Origin: Planctomycetia bacterium
GTDB lineage: Bacteria > Planctomycetota > Planctomycetia > Pirellulales > UBA1268
DNA length: 40,878 nt
NCBI GenBank assembly: GCA_021414115.1
Contig: JAIOPD010000070.1
Coordinates: 1-40,878 of the forward strand
Reading direction: 5' to 3'
Shown here: piece after piece, positions 15,443-36,353 of the stretch
Position numbering within the stretch: the first letter of the stretch is position 1
Layout: the number at the start of each line of letters is the position of its first letter
Translations under genes and position numbers: made by a program
The notes under the pieces: model-generated
The model's input: only the letters and a program-made list of their open reading frames with translations
Told to the model about the DNA's origin: nothing
Database searches by the model: none

Positions 15443-15465
15443 CGCCAACACCGCACTCTCCGTCG

Positions 15466-15581
15466 GGAAGCCCCAAGCGCGAGCGCGGGGTATACGCGTA
15501 GCCTTGAAATCGACCTCCGCGGAGCCGCACGACGTCACCTCGATGCCACCCGTATACCCGTCGCTCGCGCTCCGGGCTTCC
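15466..15581 (-). repeat. Inverted-repeat (REP-like) element, copy 10 (reverse orientation)
   Basis: 116 bp. It begins GGAAGCCCCAAGCGCGAGCG and ends CTCGCGCTCCGGGCTTCC, so the two arm types are in reversed order relative to copies 1-9. It follows the GluQRS gene. The rest of the 345-base spacer (15582-15787) is C-rich and without a supported gene. Confidence 0.9.
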
Positions 15582-15729
15582 CCAAGGCAGATACCGCACC
15601 ACCCTCCCCCCGCCCCAACGCCGCAAACGCCGCATCCCCCGGATTGCCTGGTCTGCTCGCGCTGCCCCGCCCGCCGGGACGGCGGCCTCCACGCCCCCCT
15701 CCCTCCTTAGAGGGGCCACCTGCCGCTCA

Positions 15730-15787: not shown

Positions 15788-16657
15788 ATGGATATCGCGG
15801 TCATCATTTCGACATTTGAACGGCCCCGCCATCTCGAGCGGTGCCTCGCATCGCTCGCCGTTCAAGACGATGTAGCCGGTCGCTTCGAGGTCGTCGTCAC
15901 CGACGACGGCTCCCGCGATGAAACGCTGCCGCTGCTCGCCACCCTCGCCCGCCACGCGACATTTCCGCTCACCTTCACCACCCACGAGCACGGCGGCTTC
16001 CGCCTGGCTCGCTGCCGCAACGAGGGCGTCGCCGCCTCGACGGCTCCTTACCTCCTGTTCACCGATGGCGACTGCATCCTGCCCCGCGACCACCTGCGGC
16101 AGCACCTCGCCGCACGCCGCCGAGGCTGGGTCGTCGGCAGCGACTGCGCGCGACTCGACGAGGCCACCTCGGCACGCATCGACGTCGACACCATCGTCCA
16201 CGGCGACGTCACACGACTCGTACACCGGTCGGAGGCGCAGCGGATGTGGCTCAAAGGACTGCGGGCCAAGGCCTATCAGTGGGCTCACGTGCCGATGCGG
16301 CCGCGGCTCTCCGGCAACAACATCGCCCTCTGGCGGGACGACTACGAGCGGATCAACGGCTTCGACGAACAGTTCGTCGGCTGGGGACTCGAAGACCGCG
16401 ATCTCCAATACCGGCTCGAACGGCTCGGGCTACGCGTCAACTCGATCCTCCTCAAGACGGCACCAATCCATCTCTGGCATCCGCCGGCACCGAGCTTCGC
16501 CCGCAACAACGTGGGCACGCAGAACCTCGACTACTTCAAGGCGCTGCATGCGCGGCCCATGCGCTGCATCGACGGGCTCGTGAAGCTCGACGAACGGCAG
16601 GGCACGATCACCTTCCCGGACCCTGCGACAGCGGCCCCGCGCCGCCAGGCGGCCTGA
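15788..16657 (+). CDS. GT2 glycosyltransferase with galactosyltransferase-type C-terminal region
   Basis: 289 residues. The start at 15788 gives MDIAVIISTFERPRHL and has a G-rich ribosome site just upstream. The GT-A fold shows VVVTDDGSRDET (about 37-48), then LLFTDGDCILPRDHL with the metal-binding acidic motif (near 93-103). The second half has LSGNNIALWRDDYERINGFDEQFVGWGLEDRDLQYRL, the acceptor-side signature of the GT7-like/chondroitin-polymerase group (GWGxED). It would transfer a sugar from a nucleotide donor in the cytoplasm. The next gene starts three bases after its stop, so it belongs to the unit with the pyruvyl-transferase fusion and the asparagine-synthetase-like gene. Confidence 0.9.
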   Translation: MDIAVIISTFERPRHLERCLASLAVQDDVAGRFEVVVTDDGSRDETLPLLATLARHATFPLTFTTHEHGGFRLARCRNEGVAASTAPYLLFTDGDCILPRDHLRQHLAARRRGWVVGSDCARLDEATSARIDVDTIVHGDVTRLVHRSEAQRMWLKGLRAKAYQWAHVPMRPRLSGNNIALWRDDYERINGFDEQFVGWGLEDRDLQYRLERLGLRVNSILLKTAPIHLWHPPAPSFARNNVGTQNLDYFKALHARPMRCIDGLVKLDERQGTITFPDPATAAPRRQAA

Positions 16658-16660
16658 TTC

Positions 16661-18547
16661 ATGTGGCCTTTCTCACAAGCACGCCGCGCCGCTCCGCGGA
16701 CACTCCGCATCGACACGCCGCGGCTCCGCACCAGTGACAGGAGTCAGCGGGTGACGGCAACCACGGCGGGCCGCAGGGTGTGGTTTGAGTCGGCCGATGC
16801 TCCCCTGAGAGCGAGCAGCGAGGCCTTTGGCGCGGCCCTGCTCTTGCCCGCATTGCATGCCGGCAGGTCGCTCGCGGTGCGCGGAAGTGTCTGCCCGACC
16901 TGGGCGGCCAACCTCGAGCCGCTCGCCGCCGCCTATCGGCAACTCTGGTATCCCGACGCGCCGGCACCGCAGGTGAGCCCCGAGCAGTGCACCGCCACCG
17001 CCGCGGCTCCCGGCACGGCCCTCTGCTTCAGCGGCGGAGTGGACGCCTTCCACACGCTCCTCGCCGGCGGCCGACCGGTCGACACGCTCGTCTATGTGGC
17101 GGGCTATGACGTGAGCCTTCGCGACACGGCGAGACTCACGGCCGTCGAGCGGCTCCTCCGGGAGGTGGCGGCTTCGAGCAACGCCACGAGCGTGGTCGTG
17201 AGAAGCAACCTCCGCCGCCATCCGCTGGTGCGGGCCACGCCCTGGCGGCTCGAGTTTGGCGCGGCGCTCGCCGCCGTGGGCCATGTGCTCACACCGCACG
17301 TGGGCCGGCTGTTGATCTCGAGCGACGGCCTCGGCTTCGAGCACCCCGGCGTAGGCTCGCGGGTCAGCACCGATCCCCTGCTCGGCTCGGCGGCGCTCAC
17401 CGTCGAACATGTGGCCGCGCAGGTGACGCGGCTCGAAAAGCTCCGCGCGATCGGCGGCGAGCCGCTCGTGCAGCGCCACCTGCGGGTCTGCTGGCAGAAC
17501 GTCGCCGGCAAGACCAACTGCGGCCGCTGCGAGAAGTGTGTGCGGACGATGCTCATGCTCGACGTCTGCGGTACGCTCGGCCAGTTCCCGGGGTTTGACC
17601 ACGGCCGACACCTGAGCGCGGCGGTCGACGCCCTGCCGCAGGTGGATGACGTCGTGGCCCCTTTCTACCGCGACCTGCTCACGGCCGGACTCACGGCCCA
17701 TGCCGCCGCGAGCGTCCGGCGGCTGGTCGATCGCAGCGTGGCGGTAGCGGCGCGGCCGCGCCGCGGGAGTCGCGAGCCCCTGCGAGAAGCACGCCACCGG
17801 CTGCTCGGCCCCGAGGCCTTCGCGCACGTCTGCGAGCCACTCGTTGGCCGAAAGGTCGGCTATGTCCGCCCCGTGGGCAACGTCGGCGACCACCTCATCG
17901 AACTCGCGATGACGCAGCTCTTCGCGATCTACGGCATCGACTGGTCGCTCGTGAACCTCGACGACGGCCCGCAGGCCAGCGCGGGGCTCGACCTGCTCGT
18001 GTTCGGTGGCGGCGGCAACATGGGCACTCGCTACGAGGGCAACTACGACCTCCGCAGCCGTGCCCTCGCCACGGGGTTGCCGCTGGTGATCCTGCCGCAG
18101 TCGTTTACGACGACGGAAGATCGGCCCTTTGAGCGGGTGCATGTCCGCGAACGGGGCAGCCTCGCCTACTGCCCCACGGGCATCCTCGCGCCCGACCTGG
18201 CGCTCGGCCTCGCCTGGCCCGAGCCGCCGCCGGCCGTCCGCGACCTGGGCGTGTATCTCCGCCGCGATCAGGAACGGGGCGGCCGCAAGCCACTGCTGGC
18301 CCGCGACCCCGTGCGGCTCGCCGCGACGCCGGGCGACTACCTCGCGTTTGCCGCGCGGCACAAAAGGATCGTGACCGACCGGCTGCATTTCGCGGTCGCC
18401 GGGCTCCACGCCGGCCGCGACGTCACCCTCGTGGCGAACGACTATCACAAAAACCGCTCCATGCACGAGACTTGGCTCGCGGATCTCGGCTGCCGGTTTG
18501 CCGAGTCTGCCGCGGAGGCCCTGCACCGTGGTCGCCGCGCCGCGTAA
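16661..18547 (+). CDS. Fusion: QueC-like PP-loop/zinc domain plus polysaccharide pyruvyl transferase
   Basis: 628 residues in two parts. The N-terminal half has a PP-loop, LCFSGGVDAFHTLL (about 121-134), which binds ATP in enzymes that adenylate carboxylates or carbonyls. It also has a four-cysteine zinc site, C277-x9-C287-x2-C290-x2-C293 (TNCGRCEKCVRTM), arranged much as in QueC. The C-terminal half (about 395-628) matches polysaccharide pyruvyl transferases (CsaB/ExoV type): GNVGDHLIELAM, LLVFGGGGNMGTRY, VILPQSFTTTED, TDRLHFAVAGLHAGR and an NDYHKNRSMHETW end motif. Those enzymes attach ketal-linked pyruvate from PEP to sugars. I know of no characterised protein with this pairing. The junction is a basic linker (about 360-380). 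The flanking GT2 and asparagine-synthetase-like genes suggest modification of a glycan under construction. The reaction of the PP-loop half is unknown. Confidence 0.8.
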   Translation: MWPFSQARRAAPRTLRIDTPRLRTSDRSQRVTATTAGRRVWFESADAPLRASSEAFGAALLLPALHAGRSLAVRGSVCPTWAANLEPLAAAYRQLWYPDAPAPQVSPEQCTATAAAPGTALCFSGGVDAFHTLLAGGRPVDTLVYVAGYDVSLRDTARLTAVERLLREVAASSNATSVVVRSNLRRHPLVRATPWRLEFGAALAAVGHVLTPHVGRLLISSDGLGFEHPGVGSRVSTDPLLGSAALTVEHVAAQVTRLEKLRAIGGEPLVQRHLRVCWQNVAGKTNCGRCEKCVRTMLMLDVCGTLGQFPGFDHGRHLSAAVDALPQVDDVVAPFYRDLLTAGLTAHAAASVRRLVDRSVAVAARPRRGSREPLREARHRLLGPEAFAHVCEPLVGRKVGYVRPVGNVGDHLIELAMTQLFAIYGIDWSLVNLDDGPQASAGLDLLVFGGGGNMGTRYEGNYDLRSRALATGLPLVILPQSFTTTEDRPFERVHVRERGSLAYCPTGILAPDLALGLAWPEPPPAVRDLGVYLRRDQERGGRKPLLARDPVRLAATPGDYLAFAARHKRIVTDRLHFAVAGLHAGRDVTLVANDYHKNRSMHETWLADLGCRFAESAAEALHRGRRAA

Positions 18548-18565
18548 GCCGGCAGACCAACCCGC

Positions 18566-20398
18566 ATGGCCCACCTCGCCCTCGTGATCGATGCCGATCC
18601 GCTCCGCCGCGAGCGGTTCGTGGCGGGCGTGCGCCGGCTGTTTGGCGAACTGCCCGGCGTGACGATCGCCGAGGAGCAAGACGACACGCTGGCCTGCGTG
18701 TGGGCGACGGGCCCGCGAGCGCCGGTGAGCGTGCACCGCGATGCAGACGGGCTCGCCATCTTCATCGGCTACGGCATCACCGACGACGGCCGCCGGATCA
18801 CGGCCCGCGATCTCGTCGCCGACTGGCTCGTGCCCGCAGGCACGCCGCGGGTCCACGACGGCTATCACGTGGGCCTGGCCTGGTCGCGCGACCACGGCCT
18901 CGCCGCTGGTATCGATCCGATGGCAATGTTTCCCTTTCAGTGGACCCAGATCGGCGCCGGCGCTGGCGCCCCGCTCATCGCCGCCACCACGCCGGCCGCG
19001 TTTCGCTGCCATCCGCAGTTTGAGGCGACGATCGACCGCCGCGGGCTGGCCGGAATCCTCCTCGTGCACGGGCCGCTCTGCAATCGGCCGCTGCTCGCCG
19101 GCACCCAGCGGCTACCGAAGGGGCATCTGCTCCGCTGGTCACGCGATCGCGGCGCCACGGAGCATCAGGTCTACCGCTTACGAGGCACGCCGCCCCCGGC
19201 GGACGAGACTCCCGCTGCGATGCAGGAGCGGATTCACGACGCCTACGTGTCGGCGATCCGTCGACACTGCCCTCCCGATGACGACGCCTCGATTCTGCTC
19301 TCGGGAGGACTCGATTCGCGGCTCGTCGCCGCCACGCTCGCCAGCGAAGGCATGGCGGTGAACGCGATCGCGCTGGGACGCGACGACGACTTCGAAGTGA
19401 TCGCGGCCGCGAATGTCGCCCGGCGTCTGGGCATGCCGTTCGAGACCGTATCGACCGAACTCTTCGACGAGGGGTTTCCCGCGCGGACGAATCGGACTGC
19501 CCGCTTTCTCGAGATGACGTCTGCCCCTTCGAGCGAAGACTTCGCGGAGGGTCTCGCCCACGCGAAGCGGCTCGGCCGGTATCTCTGGTCGGGTTTCATC
19601 TACGACTGGACGTTCGAGCCGGTGTCGTATGCGGAGGGCCGCGATCCCAAGACGGGCACGTGGGCGCTCGAAGGCATGCTCGCGTACATGAACCGCTGGG
19701 GCGTGCCGGCGGCACGGCTGCCCGCGCTGATGGGCGATGATGGCCCGGCCCTGTGCGACGCCCTCGTCGCCGATCTCCGGGCCGCCTGCCTCCACGGTTC
19801 GGATCGACCCGAAAACGAGGCCTGCCACATCCGCTGGGATCAGCGGGTTCGCAATCACGTGGCCACGGCCTGTCACGGCACGTCCTTTCAATCGTGGCCG
19901 CTCATGCCGGCGACCGACCGCCGCTTTCAAGAGGCCGTCTTCGGACTGCCGCCCCCCGCCTACAAAGACCGCGTGATCGAAGAGGTGATCCTCCGCACGA
20001 TCCGTCCCGACCTCTGCGATGTGCCACTCGACACGAACTCGTTTCGGTTCGACCCGCTGTCGGGCAGCCGCTCGTGGCTGGGGAAGCTCGCGGCATCCAC
20101 GCAGGGGCGGCTGCGGCGGCTCTACTGGCAGCGAGTGAAGGGCCGCGACCCACGCCGCTACGAGCGGCTCTTCAACGTGGATCATCCGCGCTGGATGGCG
20201 GTGCGTCGCGACGTCGAACCGCTGCGACCGCTCCTGCACCGCCACCTCGATCCGCGGATCGTGGCAGACCTGCTGCCGTCGCCGGACGTCCGCACCGACT
20301 TCGCCAACCCGGTGAACACCGGCGGCGCGATCCGCCTGCTGCTCAGCCTGGCCATCGTGCTCGATGATCTCGAGCGGCCGATCACCGGGAGCTCCTGA
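18566..20398 (+). CDS. Asparagine-synthetase-like protein lacking the glutaminase cysteine
   Basis: 610 residues. The C-terminal synthetase domain carries the PP-loop ASILLSGGLDSRLVAATL (SGGLDS at about 246-251), followed by the family's helical body. The N-terminal 200 residues resemble the Ntn amidotransferase fold in layout (PLLAGTQRLPKGHLLRW corresponds to the region before the synthetase domain). The protein begins MAHLALV, however, and has no Cys at position 2, so it cannot release ammonia from glutamine in the normal way. Such proteins in polysaccharide and natural-product loci form amides or other acyl-N bonds using free ammonia or an amine. It follows the fusion gene by 18 bases on the same strand. 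A carboxylated or pyruvylated sugar would be a fitting substrate, but that is inference. Confidence 0.82.
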   Translation: MAHLALVIDADPLRRERFVAGVRRLFGELPGVTIAEEQDDTLACVWATGPRAPVSVHRDADGLAIFIGYGITDDGRRITARDLVADWLVPAGTPRVHDGYHVGLAWSRDHGLAAGIDPMAMFPFQWTQIGAGAGAPLIAATTPAAFRCHPQFEATIDRRGLAGILLVHGPLCNRPLLAGTQRLPKGHLLRWSRDRGATEHQVYRLRGTPPPADETPAAMQERIHDAYVSAIRRHCPPDDDASILLSGGLDSRLVAATLASEGMAVNAIALGRDDDFEVIAAANVARRLGMPFETVSTELFDEGFPARTNRTARFLEMTSAPSSEDFAEGLAHAKRLGRYLWSGFIYDWTFEPVSYAEGRDPKTGTWALEGMLAYMNRWGVPAARLPALMGDDGPALCDALVADLRAACLHGSDRPENEACHIRWDQRVRNHVATACHGTSFQSWPLMPATDRRFQEAVFGLPPPAYKDRVIEEVILRTIRPDLCDVPLDTNSFRFDPLSGSRSWLGKLAASTQGRLRRLYWQRVKGRDPRRYERLFNVDHPRWMAVRRDVEPLRPLLHRHLDPRIVADLLPSPDVRTDFANPVNTGGAIRLLLSLAIVLDDLERPITGSS

Positions 20399-20585: not shown

Positions 20586-20589
20586 GTCG

Positions 20590-20705
20590 GGAAGCCCCAA
20601 GCGCGAGCGCGGGGTATACGGGCAACCTCACAAGCAACGTCCGCAACGCCGCAAACGATCCCCTCGACGCCACGCGGATACCCGTCGCTCGCGATCCGGG
20701 CTTCC
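20590..20705 (-). repeat. Inverted-repeat (REP-like) element, copy 11 (reverse orientation)
   Basis: 116 bp, begins GGAAGCCCCAAGCGCGAGCG and ends CTCGCGATCCGGGCTTCC. It lies between two convergent genes. Confidence 0.9.
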
Positions 20706-20723
20706 CGAGAACGGCTCGACGGA

Positions 20724-24135: not shown

Positions 24136-24918
24136 TCAGCTTCGCCACCAGGAGGCGCGGGTGTTTTTCGCCACCGCCAACAGCATGCCGTGCAACGAAC
24201 GCAACGGGGAACGATGCAAGTCTTTGGCCGCCCGCCGCTCAGCTTCGAGCAGCGAGCCCCCCAGGTCGACCGCCGCCTCGGTGACCGGATTCGGCATCGC
24301 GCTGATGATCCGGAGGCCGCTCTCCCAGGGATGCGACCAGTCTTCGTCGATCGGCCGATAGATCGTCCGCCGCGCGAGCAGCCGCGCCGCGGCCGATGCG
24401 CGGATCAGATAGGCGACGCAGCCGGAAGGAGGATATTTGTAGGCGACAAACTCCGTGCGGTCCGCCTGCCAGCGCCGCACGGGCACTTTCGGCTTGAAGT
24501 CGAAGAGCTTGAGGATGTCCCAGTCGATCGGGAGCGCGCGAGCGTCGGCGATGGCATCGAGCAACGCCTCCTCGTCTCCGATCTGGAAGTCGTCCTCGAG
24601 CACGAGAGCCAGGTCATGACCAGCGGCGAGCAGCAGCCGCCAGATGCGCCGGTGGCCCAGATAGACCCCGACCTCGCCCCCCGTCATCGGCCGCTTCATG
24701 AGAAGCCGATTCCGCCAGGCGGAATACCGCGGCGACTCGGCCGGGGCGTCGAGCCGCACGCCCGGCACGAACGTCACGTCGAGCGGCAGCCTCGCCAACT
24801 GCCCGGCAGCGCTGCGATAGCGGATACCCCACGGCGAGTCGAGCGTGAGCACGTAGCAGGGGAGGTGCCCGGAGACCCGCGGCAGCGGCCTGATCGGGAT
24901 GGTGGCCACGGCCTTCAT
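24136..24918 (-). CDS. GT25-family glycosyltransferase (LPS/LOS type)
   Basis: 260 residues. GT25 signatures are CYVLTLDSPWGIRYRSA at the N-terminus, MTGGEVGVYLGHRRIWRLLL (about 77-96) and LALVLEDDFQIGDEE with the metal-binding acidic cluster. YPPSGCVAYLIRASAARLL-like acceptor sequence and IDEDWSHPW follow. Family members add galactose or related sugars to lipooligosaccharide or glycoprotein. The ATG at 24918 has GGGAGG six bases upstream and overlaps the stop of the preceding GT4 gene (ATGA), so the two are coupled. It is the last gene of the minus-strand arm, and its 3' end abuts the repeat array. Confidence 0.9.
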   Translation of the reverse strand: MKAVATIPIRPLPRVSGHLPCYVLTLDSPWGIRYRSAAGQLARLPLDVTFVPGVRLDAPAESPRYSAWRNRLLMKRPMTGGEVGVYLGHRRIWRLLLAAGHDLALVLEDDFQIGDEEALLDAIADARALPIDWDILKLFDFKPKVPVRRWQADRTEFVAYKYPPSGCVAYLIRASAAARLLARRTIYRPIDEDWSHPWESGLRIISAMPNPVTEAAVDLGGSLLEAERRAAKDLHRSPLRSLHGMLLAVAKNTRASWWRS

Positions 24919-25907
24919 GACCGACCTCCCTCACCGTCGTCGGCTACAGGCAAGCCGAGGGCCCGCAGGAGATACCGGCGTTCGCGATCCATGGTGTAGT
25001 AGGTCGCCACCGCCTGCCCGCGCTCACGCAGCCCGTCGCGGAGCACGGGGTCGGCGAGCACGCGAGCGACCGCGGCGACGAGCCCCGCACCGTCGCCATT
25101 CGGCACGACCAGGGCCGTTTCGAGATGCCGCATGAACTCGAACCCACCCACCCCCGGAAATCCGACCACGGCACATCCGGCGGTCATCGCCTCGAGCGGC
25201 GGCAGCCCCAGGGCCTCCTGGGCGGAGATCGCCAGAAACACGTCGGCCGACTTCAGCCGGGCCGCCGTGTCGCGCTCGGAGAGTCCGTCGATCTGCACGA
25301 AGGCGACATCCGGGAGCGCCTCGCGCACCGCCTGATAGACGGCGTCTCCCTTGCGCCGCATCACGGCCACAAAGCCCTCCACCTTCGGCTCGCCCCGCCA
25401 GCGGAAGACATCGGGGATGCCCATCGCCACATAGGGCGCGACTCGGCCCCGCTCCTGGAGCCGGTAGGTCATGTGCAGGCCGTGCGAGATGCACTCGTAG
25501 CCGCGGGCCGGATCGATCATCTCCCAGTCGGCGGGCGTGTTGGCGCCCTGCATATGGAGGATCGTGCGGCCGGCCGGCAGCGCATCGACGAACGCCGCGT
25601 CTGCCGGGCAGGAAAAGAGCACGGCGTCCGTCGGCCGGCAGCAGCGGGCGAGTTCATCGCGGGTGATCACCGCAGAGCTGTTGTCGAACCAGGTCGCGCG
25701 CGTGCCATCCGGAGTCGCCACCGTGCAGGGATGACCGCTGGCCGACAGCAGGTCGGCGCAGTGGAAGCCCTTCTTGACGCCGCCGTAGATTCCCGTGCCC
25801 GGCAGCACGTAATAGAAGTGCGTCGGTGGACCGGCCGCCCGATGCGCCGCCCGCTGGATCGCGCGGCTGTCGGCAGCGCTTGCAGGGCGTTTCCACCAGC
25901 GGACCAT
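24915..25907 (-). CDS. GT4-family glycosyltransferase
   Basis: 330 residues with a GT-B fold. The N-terminal half has FYYVLPGTGIYGGVKKGFHCADLLSASGH, with the glycine-rich loop of retaining GT4 enzymes. The C-terminal half has VFLAISAQEALGLPPLEAMTAGCAVVGFPGVGG, the E-x7-E donor-binding motif. GGAGG lies nine bases before the ATG at 25907. The N-terminus has no membrane segment, so the enzyme is cytosolic or peripheral. It resembles the protein at 31696 in its opening layout (Y-F-V-x-P-x-x-x-x-G-I/V-K), although that copy lacks a clear catalytic C-terminus. Confidence 0.88.
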   Translation of the reverse strand: MVRWWKRPASAADSRAIQRAAHRAAGPPTHFYYVLPGTGIYGGVKKGFHCADLLSASGHPCTVATPDGTRATWFDNSSAVITRDELARCCRPTDAVLFSCPADAAFVDALPAGRTILHMQGANTPADWEMIDPARGYECISHGLHMTYRLQERGRVAPYVAMGIPDVFRWRGEPKVEGFVAVMRRKGDAVYQAVREALPDVAFVQIDGLSERDTAARLKSADVFLAISAQEALGLPPLEAMTAGCAVVGFPGVGGFEFMRHLETALVVPNGDGAGLVAAVARVLADPVLRDGLRERGQAVATYYTMDRERRYLLRALGLPVADDGEGGRS

Positions 25908-25968
25908 GGCGAGAATCCTCCGGGAAGCGAGGGGATGGTTCTGGGCCGGGCCGCGGCGACACCTGCTC

Positions 25969-26175
25969 CTAGCCCAGGAGCTCCACGTAGCTCTGCATCT
26001 CGCGCTGCGAGATCTTCACGTACCGGTCGCCGAGGATCTCCTCCATCTCCTCCTCCGTGAGTCGCATGCGCAGGATGTCGAGGGCGTCCTGCGGGGAGCG
26101 GCCATACGCGAGCTTCTTGCGGCCGTTTTTCAGGTCGAACAGATACATGAAATGAGGATTGCTGAAACTGCTCAT
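25969..26175 (-). CDS. 68-residue protein between radical SAM and glycosyltransferase genes
   Basis: A small acidic/basic protein, MSSFSNPHFMYLFDLKNGRK at the start and QREMQSYVELLG at the end, with one clear amphipathic helix (SPQDALDILRMRLTEEEMEEIL). It lies 27 bases after the radical SAM stop and 61 bases before the GT4 gene on the same strand, so it is very probably translated from the same message. It has no signal peptide and no cysteine. I recognise no family. Possible roles are an accessory subunit or a peptide substrate of the radical SAM enzyme, but nothing in the sequence decides this. Codon pattern and position support a real gene. Confidence 0.7.
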   Translation of the reverse strand: MSSFSNPHFMYLFDLKNGRKKLAYGRSPQDALDILRMRLTEEEMEEILGDRYVKISQREMQSYVELLG

Positions 26176-26202
26176 GGTCCGGCGCCCGCTGCCCTGGTCG
26201 GC

Positions 26203-27603
26203 TCATGCCTTCGCCAGGGCCCTCCCGTAGTCGGATGCTCGCTCGCCGCCGAGAGAGCCGTCGGCGTCGATATCGGCGTCGTATCGGCCCGCGAGAAGCT
26301 CCCGGTAGAACGCGTAATCGACTCCCTTCACCTTCTCGTCGTCCGGATAGCGGTGGTAGTTGTCGCGGCTCATCAGGCTCTTGCCCTCCGCGATCAGCTG
26401 GTTGCCGAGCGCGGAACCGGGATAGGGGGCGTAGAAGGCGATCGACGGCAGGACGTATTTCATGCGCCGCAGCATCTGCATCGTCTTGAACGCATCGGCG
26501 CGGGTCTCTCCCGGCACGCCGAGCATGATATTGGCCCAAAACTTCGGCGGCTCGCGGCCCTCGCGCTCGAGGTCGGCTCCGATCCGGTTGATCAGGTCGA
26601 TGGCGAAGTCGTTGTCCTCCACGGTGCACTCCTTGTTGAGCATCCGCAGCATGCGATCGCTGCCCGACTCGAATCCGATCGAGATGGTTCGCCAGTTCGT
26701 CTCGCGGACGAGTGCCTCGAAGAGATCGGGCCACTGCCGCACCGTGTCGGAGCGGGCGGCGGCCCAATACGGCCAGATCCGCTTCGCCCGCCGGGGATAC
26801 TTCACGAGCCACTCGCGGAGCCACTTCGGATTCTGAAAGAACATGGAGTCGTGAATCACCACCGAACCGACGCCATGCGTGTCGTCGAGGTGGTTGAGCT
26901 CGTCGATCACGTCGTCCACCGGCCGCCGGCCCATGTTGGGAATGAACGAGTTTTCATTGCAGAAGACGCACTGCCACGGACAGACGCGGCTGGTGAGGAC
27001 CGTCGCGACGGGAGGCGGTCCCCAGCCGCACGCGGGCTCCAGCGGCCAGTGAAACCGGCGGCGGGTCTTGCGGCCCACCGGCTGCGGCCAGAGCGTGCGG
27101 TCGATTCGCGGCCATTCGGCCATCGATCGGGCGCCGACGCCGCGGATGACGCGGGGAAAGGCGTGGGGATCGCGGACGAGATCGACGATCGTGTTTTCAC
27201 CGGGCCCCTGGCAGATCCGGTCGAAATCCCGATTCGGCTCCAGCTCGTCGAGCGCGACGGTGGCGTGCATGCCGCCGACCATGCAGATGCCGTCGGGGTT
27301 GAGCTCCTTGAAGATGCGCGCCGCCCGAAGAGCCACCGGAAAGGTGTAGCTGCGAACGTTCATCAGCAGCTTTTTGTAGCCCCGCATCTGCCGGGCCAAC
27401 TGATCCCACGACACGACCGCGCGGGTGGACGCGAGGTCGGTCATCACGTTATGACGGTGGAGGATCGTCCGCAGCAGGCCCAGGCCGTGGTCCTGCCACT
27501 GCTCGTGCGGGCCGCTTTGATTGACCAGGTCGCCGAGGTCGCCGAGGTCGAGCCACAACACGTCGGATGTTTTCCGCGGGCTCCAGGGAAAGCTGAATGG
27601 CAC
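26203..27603 (-). CDS. B12-binding-domain radical SAM protein
   Basis: 466 residues. The start is GTG at 27603 with GGAGG ten bases upstream; longer readings run into the divergent promoter region. The N-terminal third is a cobalamin-binding Rossmann fold (LWLDLGDLGDL opening; GICMVGGMHATVALDE), without a clear DxHxxG. The radical SAM core has SRVCPWQCVFCNENS, that is Cx3Cx2C for the 4Fe-4S cluster, then IGFESGSDRML and a TIM-barrel end MLGVPGETRADAFKTM. Such enzymes use adenosyl radicals, often for methyl transfer or rearrangement on unactivated carbon. In a glycosyltransferase locus it could modify a sugar, lipid carrier or the 68-residue product of the next gene. It is the first gene of the minus arm, divergent from the GT4 at 27788; the 184-base spacer would hold both promoters. 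Confidence 0.88.
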   Translation of the reverse strand: MPFSFPWSPRKTSDVLWLDLGDLGDLVNQSGPHEQWQDHGLGLLRTILHRHNVMTDLASTRAVVSWDQLARQMRGYKKLLMNVRSYTFPVALRAARIFKELNPDGICMVGGMHATVALDELEPNRDFDRICQGPGENTIVDLVRDPHAFPRVIRGVGARSMAEWPRIDRTLWPQPVGRKTRRRFHWPLEPACGWGPPPVATVLTSRVCPWQCVFCNENSFIPNMGRRPVDDVIDELNHLDDTHGVGSVVIHDSMFFQNPKWLREWLVKYPRRAKRIWPYWAAARSDTVRQWPDLFEALVRETNWRTISIGFESGSDRMLRMLNKECTVEDNDFAIDLINRIGADLEREGREPPKFWANIMLGVPGETRADAFKTMQMLRRMKYVLPSIAFYAPYPGSALGNQLIAEGKSLMSRDNYHRYPDDEKVKGVDYAFYRELLAGRYDADIDADGSLGGERASDYGRALAKA

Positions 27604-27787
27604 GGCAGACAACCCTCCGCAGCGACGGCCAGGACGCCCTTCGAGGGACGAGCCGGCAAACCGTTGCGGCGGAGGGTAGCGGACGGATCGGAGGCCAGAC
27701 AGGCCGTTTTGCGGGCGATTTTCCGCGACGCGACTGCCCTGTCGCGCGGCCTCGGTGCGAGCTTCTCGTGCGGCGGGAGGTCCGGGC

Positions 27788-28963
27788 GTGCGGCTGATGC
27801 AGCTGACCGTCGACTGCCCGTGGCCGGCCGTGTCCGGCGGCGACATCCGCAATGCGCTGGTGGCCGCCGCTCCGGGTGTGTCGAGCCTCCTGACCGTGGG
27901 CCTGACGCCGCCGCTGCCAACCACAGAAGCCGAGCCGCCTCCCTACCGTCATCTCACCTGCTTCGGGGATCGAAACCCGTGGCGGTGCATCGACCCGGCC
28001 GTGCCCACATGCCTCCGCTTTCCCACGGCTGCGCTGACGGCCCTCGACACCATCGTCGATGACTTCAGGCCCGATGCGGTGGTCGCCGTAGGCGTGGCGT
28101 GGCGCGACGTGATCGAGCGGCTGCATCATCGCGGAGTGCCCACCGCGGTCGACATGCACAACGTGGAATCACGACTCTTCGCCGAGCAGAGCGGCGCACG
28201 CCCCTGGTGGCGGCGGCTGATGGCCACCGGCAAGACGGCACGACTCGTCTCGGCCTGCGAGCGGGCCGACGGCTCGATCAGCAACCTCGCGGCCCAGACC
28301 TGGGTCTGCTCCGTGGCCGACGCGTCGCTCCTCCGCGGGATCGGAGGGCGAGCCGATGCCGTGATCCGCAACCCCATCCCCGACGAGTCGCTGCTCGCGT
28401 TGCCGATCGCCGCCGACCGTTATCACAGCCCGACGCCCCTCTTCATCGGGCATCTGGCCTATTTTCCCAACGTCGCCGCGGTGATGGAGCTGGCGGGGCC
28501 GGTGGTGGCCGCGGCGGCCCGGCATGGAATCCGGATTCGCCCCACGGTGGCGGGTCGGTCGCCGCGCCACCGGATCGAGTCGCTTTCTCGCGCCGGCACG
28601 ATACGGCTCGTCGCTGATCCTACCTCGACGGTCGAGATATCGCAGCTCCACGGCTACGCGGTGCTACCGATCCGACACGGCGGCGGCACACGCATCAAGG
28701 CCATCGAAGCATTGGCCGCCGGGCTTGTCCTGATCGCGACACGGAAGGCGGTCGAGGGACTGGAACTCGTGCACGGGCTGCATTTCACCGCGGCGGAGAC
28801 GCCCGACGAGATGGCTGCTGCCCTGGCCCGGTTCGTACAGCAGCCCGACGAGGCCGCTGCCCTGGCGGCCTCCGGACGACGGTTTGCGATCGAGCATCAC
28901 GGCCGCAGCGCCGTACTGTCGGCAGTCGCCACGGCCTTGAGCACCGTGGCGCGGACCGGCTGA
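27788..28963 (+). CDS. GT4-family glycosyltransferase
   Basis: 391 residues. I chose the GTG at 27788 because GGGAGG lies seven bases upstream; the next ATG (27797) would be too far from it. The opening VRLMQLTVDCPWPAVSGGDIRN has the glycine loop after the first strand. AVDMHNVESRLF and SNLAAQTWVCSVADASLL mark the inter-domain region, and VLPIRHGGGTRIKAIEALAAGLVLIATRKAVEGLEL is the C-terminal donor-binding block typical of GT4 enzymes. It is the first gene of the plus-strand arm. A 121-base gap separates it from the next gene, so that gene may have its own promoter. Confidence 0.88.
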   Translation: MRLMQLTVDCPWPAVSGGDIRNALVAAAPGVSSLLTVGLTPPLPTTEAEPPPYRHLTCFGDRNPWRCIDPAVPTCLRFPTAALTALDTIVDDFRPDAVVAVGVAWRDVIERLHHRGVPTAVDMHNVESRLFAEQSGARPWWRRLMATGKTARLVSACERADGSISNLAAQTWVCSVADASLLRGIGGRADAVIRNPIPDESLLALPIAADRYHSPTPLFIGHLAYFPNVAAVMELAGPVVAAAARHGIRIRPTVAGRSPRHRIESLSRAGTIRLVADPTSTVEISQLHGYAVLPIRHGGGTRIKAIEALAAGLVLIATRKAVEGLELVHGLHFTAAETPDEMAAALARFVQQPDEAAALAASGRRFAIEHHGRSAVLSAVATALSTVARTG

Positions 28964-35987: not shown

Positions 35988-36007
35988 TCGCGGGTCATCG
36001 GGCCCGG

Positions 36008-36112
36008 GAAGCCCGGAGCGCAAGCGACGGGTAGACGGGTGGCGACCTCGACCGTGCCGCGGAGCGAGTTGGGGTGGAGAACGTCTTCCCCGCGCTCGCG
36101 CTTGGGGCTTCC
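36008..36112 (+). repeat. Inverted-repeat (REP-like) element, copy 15
   Basis: 105 bp following the PEP-CTERM gene. It is preceded by TCATCGGGCCCG, which recurs as GCATTGGGCCCG before copy 16, indicating tandem duplication with flank. Confidence 0.9.
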
Positions 36113-36156
36113 CGACGGAAAAACGTGGCCTTCTGCGAGCCGGGGCATTGGGCCCG

Positions 36157-36262
36157 GGAAGCCCGGAGCGCGAGCGACGGGTAGACGGGTGGCGACCGTG
36201 ACGACCGTGCGGAGCGAGTTGGGGTGGAGAACGTCTTCCCCGCGCTCGCGCTTGGGGCTTCC
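36157..36262 (+). repeat. Inverted-repeat (REP-like) element, copy 16
   Basis: 106 bp, same orientation as copy 15, 149 bases downstream of it. Together they occupy most of the 366-base stretch 35988-36353, in which I see no gene. Confidence 0.9.
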
Positions 36263-36353
36263 CGAGCACGAGGCGTGGGCGTTCGACAGGTGGATACCGT
36301 GCGAGTAGTCTGCTGCGCAAGGTTTGAAAGCCCCTGCCTCCACGAGGAACGCC

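Follow-up and report, generated by a model that had tools for sequence, protein, structure and literature searches.

Three members of the QueC superfamily offer the closest comparison for the protein described here. QueC converts an ATP-activated carboxylate to an amide and then to a nitrile, while Cap9 of type IV cyclic-oligonucleotide-based anti-phage signalling systems (CBASS) joins a carboxylate to an N-terminal glycine, as described in PMC13279940 and PMC13329287. QatC belongs to the anti-phage system qatABCD, and its reaction was reported as unresolved (PMC13279940). The other half of our protein resembles polysaccharide pyruvyl transferases (PF04230). Residues shown or proposed to serve phosphoenolpyruvate (PEP) or the acceptor in these enzymes are D106, R217, R337, H339, and K361 in yeast Pvg1p and R148, R306, H308, and K328 in CsaB (PMC4872226, PMC10435577). 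We analyzed 40,878 nucleotides of a Planctomycetia bacterium of the order Pirellulales (assembly GCA_021414115.1, contig JAIOPD010000070.1, positions 1 to 40,878), called the window below. It encodes a fusion of a QatC-like domain to a pyruvyl transferase. The fusion gene lies between genes of a GT2-type glycosyltransferase and of a homologue of asparagine synthetase B (AsnB), and the three form a unit (Table 1). Our main finding is that QatC-like proteins of this kind very probably work as functional partners of pyruvyl transferases, both within the fusion and as separate proteins.

The initial annotation had reported a PP-loop and a QueC-type C-x9-C-x2-C-x2-C site in the N-terminal half of the fusion, and the residues were found exactly there. 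Both features recur in all 41 members of a family of homologues that are 22–74% identical to the window protein, so they are not there by chance. Gly126, Asp128, Arg257, and the four cysteines are invariant in these diverse sequences; Gly148, Lys260, Asn286, and Lys292 are invariant or nearly so, and most members have Asp at position 238. Some members have PP-loop variants with T or A replacements. By analogy with QueC and QatC, we infer that the domain binds zinc. An AlphaFold2 model of residues 1–375 built from the 41 sequences has a mean predicted local distance difference test score (pLDDT) of 93.3 and a predicted template modelling score (pTM) of 0.90. It comprises an N-terminal extension (approximately 11–110), a PP-loop core with the four-cysteine site (approximately 115–305), and C-terminal helices. 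The conserved motifs and the model rule out a decayed N-terminal half.

Foldseek alone gave no convincing match for this model (best E 0.099). In a second look with VIA, QatC was the top structure (PDB 9y01, Z 14.4, root-mean-square deviation 4.5 over 295 residues in the range 11–361), followed by QueC (Z 11.7 and 11.5), Cap9 (Z 10.7), and then MnmA, LarE, and other PP-loop enzymes (Z at most 9.4). The N-terminal half of the full-length model was again led by QatC and then QueC. Among PDB chains, the 41-row profile likewise matched QatC best, with a weak E-value of 0.016, and a profile of planctomycete QatC proteins aligned at the cysteine site (89% probability, P 2e-6). Searches of the domain alone by sequence against Pfam, NCBIfam, PADLOC, and the PDB gave nothing useful, and Pfam has nothing over the cut-off in the fusion ahead of the PF04230 match.

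On the grounds of sequence and modelled fold, the domain is a member of the QueC superfamily with QatC architecture, and it is neither QueC nor QatC. It has in common with QatC (PDB 9y01/9y02, NF041925) the overall fold over residues 11–361, including the extension before the QueC core, the PP-loop, and the four-cysteine site. However, the QatC substrate motif (TxT) TRTTHP occurs in 0 of the 41 family members against 10 of 10 planctomycete QatC proteins and near relatives, and other QatC motifs are absent in nearly all members. The NF041925 profile matched neither any of the 17 members scanned nor anything in the window's genome. According to Pfam, qatA, qatB, and qatD are not among the window neighbours, although QatB has no Pfam model. 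Unlike in the Qat systems, the neighbours of the family are glycan genes, and the partner is a pyruvyl transferase.

The proposed likeness to QueC held in part. The core fold (Z 11.7), the cysteine pattern, and the SGGxD PP-loop are common to both, but among known structures QatC is the closest, and YxQxHxxE, VPxRN, and YPDC, the substrate motifs of QueC, are found in none of the 41 family members, compared with 9 of 9 true QueC proteins. PF06508 does not match the window protein and gives weak matches to 5 of 17 relatives (best E 0.011). The absent motifs rule out a canonical QueC, and the genome encodes a true QueC elsewhere (G000:C31). Cap9 (PDB 9nto) has the core fold in common with our domain (Z 10.7); unlike it, Cap9 is described in PMC13329287 as a minimal domain that keeps the QueC substrate motifs, and no CD-NTase was noticed at the window unit. 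Thus the family belongs to the superfamily as an unannotated third branch alongside QueC and QatC.

A further relative is suggested by DUF6395 (PF19932). Its profile matches 16 of 17 members below the threshold in the region of the cysteine site; the window domain scores 14.5 bits, far short of the curated cut-off of 25 bits. A search of 40 genomes found no match over the cut-off. A DUF6395-annotated protein of a Priestia plasmid (L138:14823-16298, minus strand) matches the QatC-like profile weakly, at E 1e-4; the same plasmid encodes two QatC-like proteins and a pyruvyl transferase. Because of this match, DUF6395 is probably a remote relative of the family.

The C-terminal half is, as judged from sequence and model, a pyruvyl transferase with intact PEP-site residues, for which pyruvate transfer itself is predicted. 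PF04230 matches with 48.3 bits against a cut-off of 25.3 (E 1.7e-12, profile positions 1–280), and the motifs GNVGD, GGGGNMG, and TDRLHF start at residues 406, 449, and 572. The modelled fold agrees with Pvg1p (5ax7; Foldseek E 2.6e-9, VIA Z 21.4) and with a Klebsiella enzyme (6x1l; VIA Z 22.2). Assigned by motif, the counterparts of the PEP/acceptor residues of Pvg1p and CsaB are D410, R496, R574, H576, and K597, which are identical in 12 of 12 aligned sequences. All five residues checked are therefore kept, and a full pyruvyl-transferase domain, as first annotated, is present. It differs from other polysaccharide pyruvyl transferases in its fusion to a QatC-like domain and in its compactness (about 250 residues).

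The three open reading frames (ORFs) lie on the plus strand at 15788-20398, with gaps of 3 nt between the glycosyltransferase and fusion genes and 18 nt between the fusion and AsnB-like genes, as had been claimed. The length of the glycosyltransferase is counted from an ATG, and the open frame begins earlier, at a TTG. Among 72 genomes searched in the same taxonomic family, 10, including the window's own, have the complete fusion. The nine other fusions are 62–80% identical to it; each is one open frame, and one is truncated by a contig start. An assembly error joining two genes is ruled out by the presence of one open frame in 10 genomes. The gene order is the same at every fusion locus with enough sequence, and the glycosyltransferase gene is immediately upstream of the fusion in nine of the ten genomes, the tenth being cut by a contig start. 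Genes for EF-G, an Rce1-like protein, and GluQ-RS on one flank are common to some fusion genomes and not to others; therefore the conserved unit is the three genes, in line with the initial annotation. It does not stay together across planctomycetes, a point on which the initial annotation had proposed a check. What recurs across phyla is the pair of a QatC-like protein and a pyruvyl transferase.

This pair was found well beyond the fusion. In a phylum-wide search, homologues of the N-terminal domain were detected in 20 of 391 other genomes, besides those of the same family. Their neighbours, according to Pfam, include pyruvyl transferases, sulfotransferases, methyltransferases, and glycosyltransferases. 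We counted adjacency at 41 planctomycete places other than the window-type fusion, in 31 genomes. A separate PF04230 gene lies within 2 kb of a free-standing homologue at 13 of the 41 places, often as the next gene, against 0.08 expected under uniform placement. The latter is too generous a null model, since homologues and PF04230 genes both live in glycan loci, so we took as a control the similarly abundant PF02397, an initiating sugar transferase; it occurs within 10 kb of a homologue at none of the 41 places. The genomes are not phylogenetically independent of each other. In one planctomycete (G320) the QatC-like domain is fused to a GT2 domain, and the next gene upstream encodes a pyruvyl transferase, i.e., the same three components stand in another arrangement.

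Outside the phylum, family members carrying the annotation "hypothetical protein", and examined by profile and motif checks, are encoded by plasmids of Gemmobacter, Azospirillum, Gloeothece, Nostoc, Priestia, and haloarchaea. An annotated polysaccharide pyruvyl transferase is adjacent or at most two genes away at both Gemmobacter loci, on two Azospirillum plasmids, in two Gloeothece species, and in Priestia. No adjoining pyruvyl transferase was seen at the Nostoc, haloarchaeal, or Paracoccus loci. A suspected fusion of both domains in Paracoccus yeei had no Pfam support and was rejected.

Several other arrangements of the QatC-like family were noted. Tandem arrays of two or three paralogues occur in L115 (G247:C83), L118 (G096:C9), L113 (G308:C291), and L138 (Priestia), with a pyruvyl transferase beside those in L115 and L138. 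In L030, L031, and L032 the PP-loop is degenerate (SGGLRS) in the second copy of a tandem pair, which also has CGRCPEC or CGTCPEC, a sequence pattern that suggests a pair of an active and an inactive protein. At L055:7963-9861 (minus strand) a sulfotransferase-looking stretch (PKTAGTS) with no Pfam match precedes the QatC-like domain in one open frame. A formyl transferase gene is directly upstream of the QatC-like gene in the alpha-proteobacterium Gemmobacter (L132) and in two planctomycete loci (L053, L054); in L132 the QatC-like gene is followed by genes for GT25, a pyruvyl transferase, and a Mur ligase.

The third protein of the unit was described initially as a cysteine-less asparagine synthetase with its own PP-loop, and this was borne out: position 2 is Ala in 10 of 10 relatives (MAH start), which leaves no Cys2 nucleophile, and SGG(L/M)DSR is kept in all ten. 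The protein has in common with asparagine synthetase B and beta-lactam synthetase the PP-loop SGGLDS and weak synthetase-domain similarity; its best PDB matches are the hydroxyamidotransferase 7ylz and the beta-lactam synthetase 1jgt. Unlike asparagine synthetase B, it has neither Cys2 nor the RGPD motif, which is present in eight canonical AsnB sequences, and the glutaminase function is thus lost. The catalytic Lys is apparently absent.

A member of this AsnB-like family occurs in 10 of 10 fusion genomes, in one of them as two overlapping pieces on another contig. It is also found in a genome whose contig stops just before the expected start of the N-terminal domain. Other genomes of the same family have a pyruvyl transferase without the N-terminal domain, 64–76% identical (42% in one case) and in several cases directly behind the GT2 gene; none of these solo genomes has the AsnB-like gene. 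In a tree of the pyruvyl-transferase domain with several weakly supported branches, the label fused or solo changes approximately three times. Hence the N-terminal domain and the AsnB-like gene appear to be gained and lost as a pair, a pattern suggestive of a shared pathway. The AsnB-like gene is a companion of the fused form alone, within one family of genomes.

The following scheme may account for the unit. The three proteins would modify a surface glycan, to which the GT2-type enzyme would add a sugar. The C-terminal domain of the fusion would transfer pyruvate from PEP to this sugar as a ketal and leave a free carboxylate. The N-terminal domain would then adenylate a carboxylate, in the simplest case the one on the ketal that its fused partner produces, and reaction with ammonia or an amine would give an amide, so that a negative charge may be masked or another group attached. 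The AsnB-like protein, which represents a second kind of amide-forming PP-loop enzyme and is presumably unable to draw ammonia from glutamine itself, might perform or complete the step that depends on the N-terminal domain; without glutaminase it could be an amide ligase in the same pathway. The superfamily activates carboxylates and the pyruvyl transferase creates a new one, therefore the ketal carboxylate is the simplest candidate. By analogy, its activation and amidation would fit both the chemistry of the superfamily and the pairing of the separate genes. Amide-forming families (ATP-grasp, Mur ligase) near the QatC-like domain in Gemmobacter and Halorientalis also fit amide chemistry but leave open which enzyme does what. 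A nitrile-like product, the other outcome first envisaged, has no specific support, as the QueC substrate motifs are absent. That the domain adenylates a carboxylate, probably of a pyruvate ketal, and makes an amide is plausible, and we offer it tentatively, with substrate and product both inferred. A bolder version is rather doubtful: QatC-like enzymes might use the ketal carboxylate as a handle and couple an amino sugar, lipid, peptide, or protein N-terminus to it as an amide. Pyruvylation would then be the first half of an unknown glycan-linking route, and the defence protein QatC would be a relative of these glycan enzymes.

Several observations weigh against amidation of a pyruvate ketal. 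The strongest of them is that no pyruvyl transferase is near the homologue at 28 of the 41 places and that 4 of the 31 genomes have no PF04230 match. A pyruvate ketal can therefore not be the substrate everywhere, and various carboxylates or carbonyls may serve the family instead. The substrate-binding residues of both QueC and QatC are replaced in the family. The relative placing of the two domains is uncertain in the full-length model (pTM 0.60). In the AsnB-like protein the catalytic Lys motif RxKxGF was not detected in a C-terminal region where the alignment is poor. Finally, a term search of a review of glycan pyruvylation (PMC6801904) brought up neither such a fusion nor an amide of a pyruvate ketal.

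The domain could instead work on the acceptor sugar in the manner of WbpG or PseA and convert an N-acyl or other carbonyl group to an amidine or amide. This conversion would not depend on pyruvylation, and the two reactions would simply decorate one sugar. WbpG-type N-acetyl-sugar amidotransferases are indeed glycan-acting PP-loop enzymes according to PMC13329287. The formyl transferases in L053 and Gemmobacter and the many places without a pyruvyl transferase would suit such a role. Yet the NCBIfam models of WbpG/PseA sugar amidotransferases matched none of 17 members, the cysteines follow a QueC-like pattern rather than CxxC(x)6CxC, and the recurrence of pyruvyl transferases as partners would be left unexplained. 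We regard this explanation as unlikely, if still worth keeping in mind. Cap9 chemistry (PMC13279940) suggests another role, in which a pyruvylated glycan or a 7-deazaguanine is joined through its carboxylate to the N-terminal amine of a protein. A PTPS/QueD homologue is present in each of the 24 domain-bearing genomes tested, and 7-carboxy-7-deazaguanine might thus be on hand, but a test with such uniform presence does not discriminate. No QatB-like or CD-NTase partner was noticed in the unit, and none of the 41 members has YPDC, the motif that holds the base-stacking tyrosine in QueC; this role appears improbable.

The core fold is also common to the sulfur-transfer enzymes LarE, MnmA, and TtuA (Z 7–9.4), and the domain might accordingly turn a carboxylate into a thio-acid. 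We give this little credence: these enzymes score lower than QatC, QueC, and Cap9 and for the most part align over the core alone, and the four cysteines follow the zinc pattern of QueC and QatC described in PMC13279940 and PMC13329287, not the three cysteines of an iron-sulfur cluster. Fusion to an enzyme and the PP-loop variants of some relatives might point to a nucleotide-binding regulator of the pyruvyl transferase with no chemistry of its own. However, Gly126, Asp128, Arg257, and the four cysteines do not vary in the family, free-standing copies exist, and loss together with the AsnB-like gene suggests a pathway step, which makes a purely regulatory domain just as hard to believe in. A role in defence, as a module akin to Qat or type IV CBASS, might be expected from the nearest solved structure, that of QatC with its matching N-terminal extension. 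It is very improbable in view of the lack of a useful PADLOC match and of an NF041925 match, the absence of TRTTHP from 41 of 41 members, and the glycan genes around the domain. Amidation of a pyruvate-derived carboxylate is thus the reading that we retain, at the tentative strength given above.

Table 1. Positions of the three-gene unit, the parts of the fusion, and the flanking repeats in the window
Feature	Coordinates	Strand	Support
GT2-type glycosyltransferase gene, 289 amino acids	15788-16657	+	PF00535 E 8.6e-18, PF02709 E 5.1e-13
Fusion gene, 628 amino acids	16661-18547	+	ORF
N-terminal QatC-like ATP-pyrophosphatase domain, residues 1-375	16661-17785	+	AlphaFold2 model and VIA-align
PP-loop SGGVDAF, residues 124-130	17030-17050	+	[ST][GAC]GxD in 41/41 family members
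Predicted zinc site C277-x9-C287-x2-C290-x2-C293	17489-17539	+	four Cys invariant in 41/41 family members
C-terminal pyruvyl-transferase domain, residues 376-628	17786-18547	+	PF04230 at residues 407-595
AsnB-like PP-loop protein without glutaminase nucleophile, 610 amino acids	18566-20398	+	PF00733 E 1.7e-6 over PP-loop
Dispersed inverted-repeat element copy, upstream flank, not part of the unit's function	15460-15587	.	
Same inverted-repeat element, downstream flank	20587-20708	.	

The Pfam neighbourhood of the fusion in the window comprises Rce1-like, GluQ-RS, GT2, AsnB-like, KASIII, and glycosyltransferase genes. A second glycan-like group (GT25, GT4, and a B12-binding radical S-adenosylmethionine protein) is located downstream at 24136-27924 on the minus strand; the loci examined do not conserve it along with the unit. 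The repeats on both sides of the unit are pairs of a half-site, GGGAAGCCC[CG][AG]AGCGCGAGCG, which occurs 32 times in the 40.9 kb with none expected; further copies are at, e.g., 1077-1191 and 36006-36263. The element resembles the repetitive extragenic palindromic sequences and bacterial interspersed mosaic elements (REP/BIME).

The superfamily itself is known, and the new part is the partnership of a QatC-like protein with pyruvyl transferases. The main text of a PF06508 survey of ten QueC-superfamily sequence clusters (PMC13329287) ties no branch to pyruvyl transferases. We found no literature on a pyruvyl transferase with a PP-loop protein or asparagine synthetase, on amidated carboxyethylidene glycans, or on DUF6395, and only one unrelated genome paper for a pyruvyl transferase with QueC. 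Pairing and fusion are therefore undescribed in the literature found, as the initial annotation had supposed; supplementary files and subscription papers were outside the search, so the absence of a description is not proven.

Members of the QatC-like branch, which bear the annotation hypothetical protein, occur in planctomycetes, alpha-proteobacteria, cyanobacteria, bacilli, and haloarchaea. Because a partner of known reaction is strongly linked to it genetically, the substrate of this branch can be tested directly. The partnership suggests that pyruvate on bacterial glycans is processed further, which would be an undescribed chemical step in the building of surface sugars. The branch also provides a reference that may make the target of QatC easier to identify.

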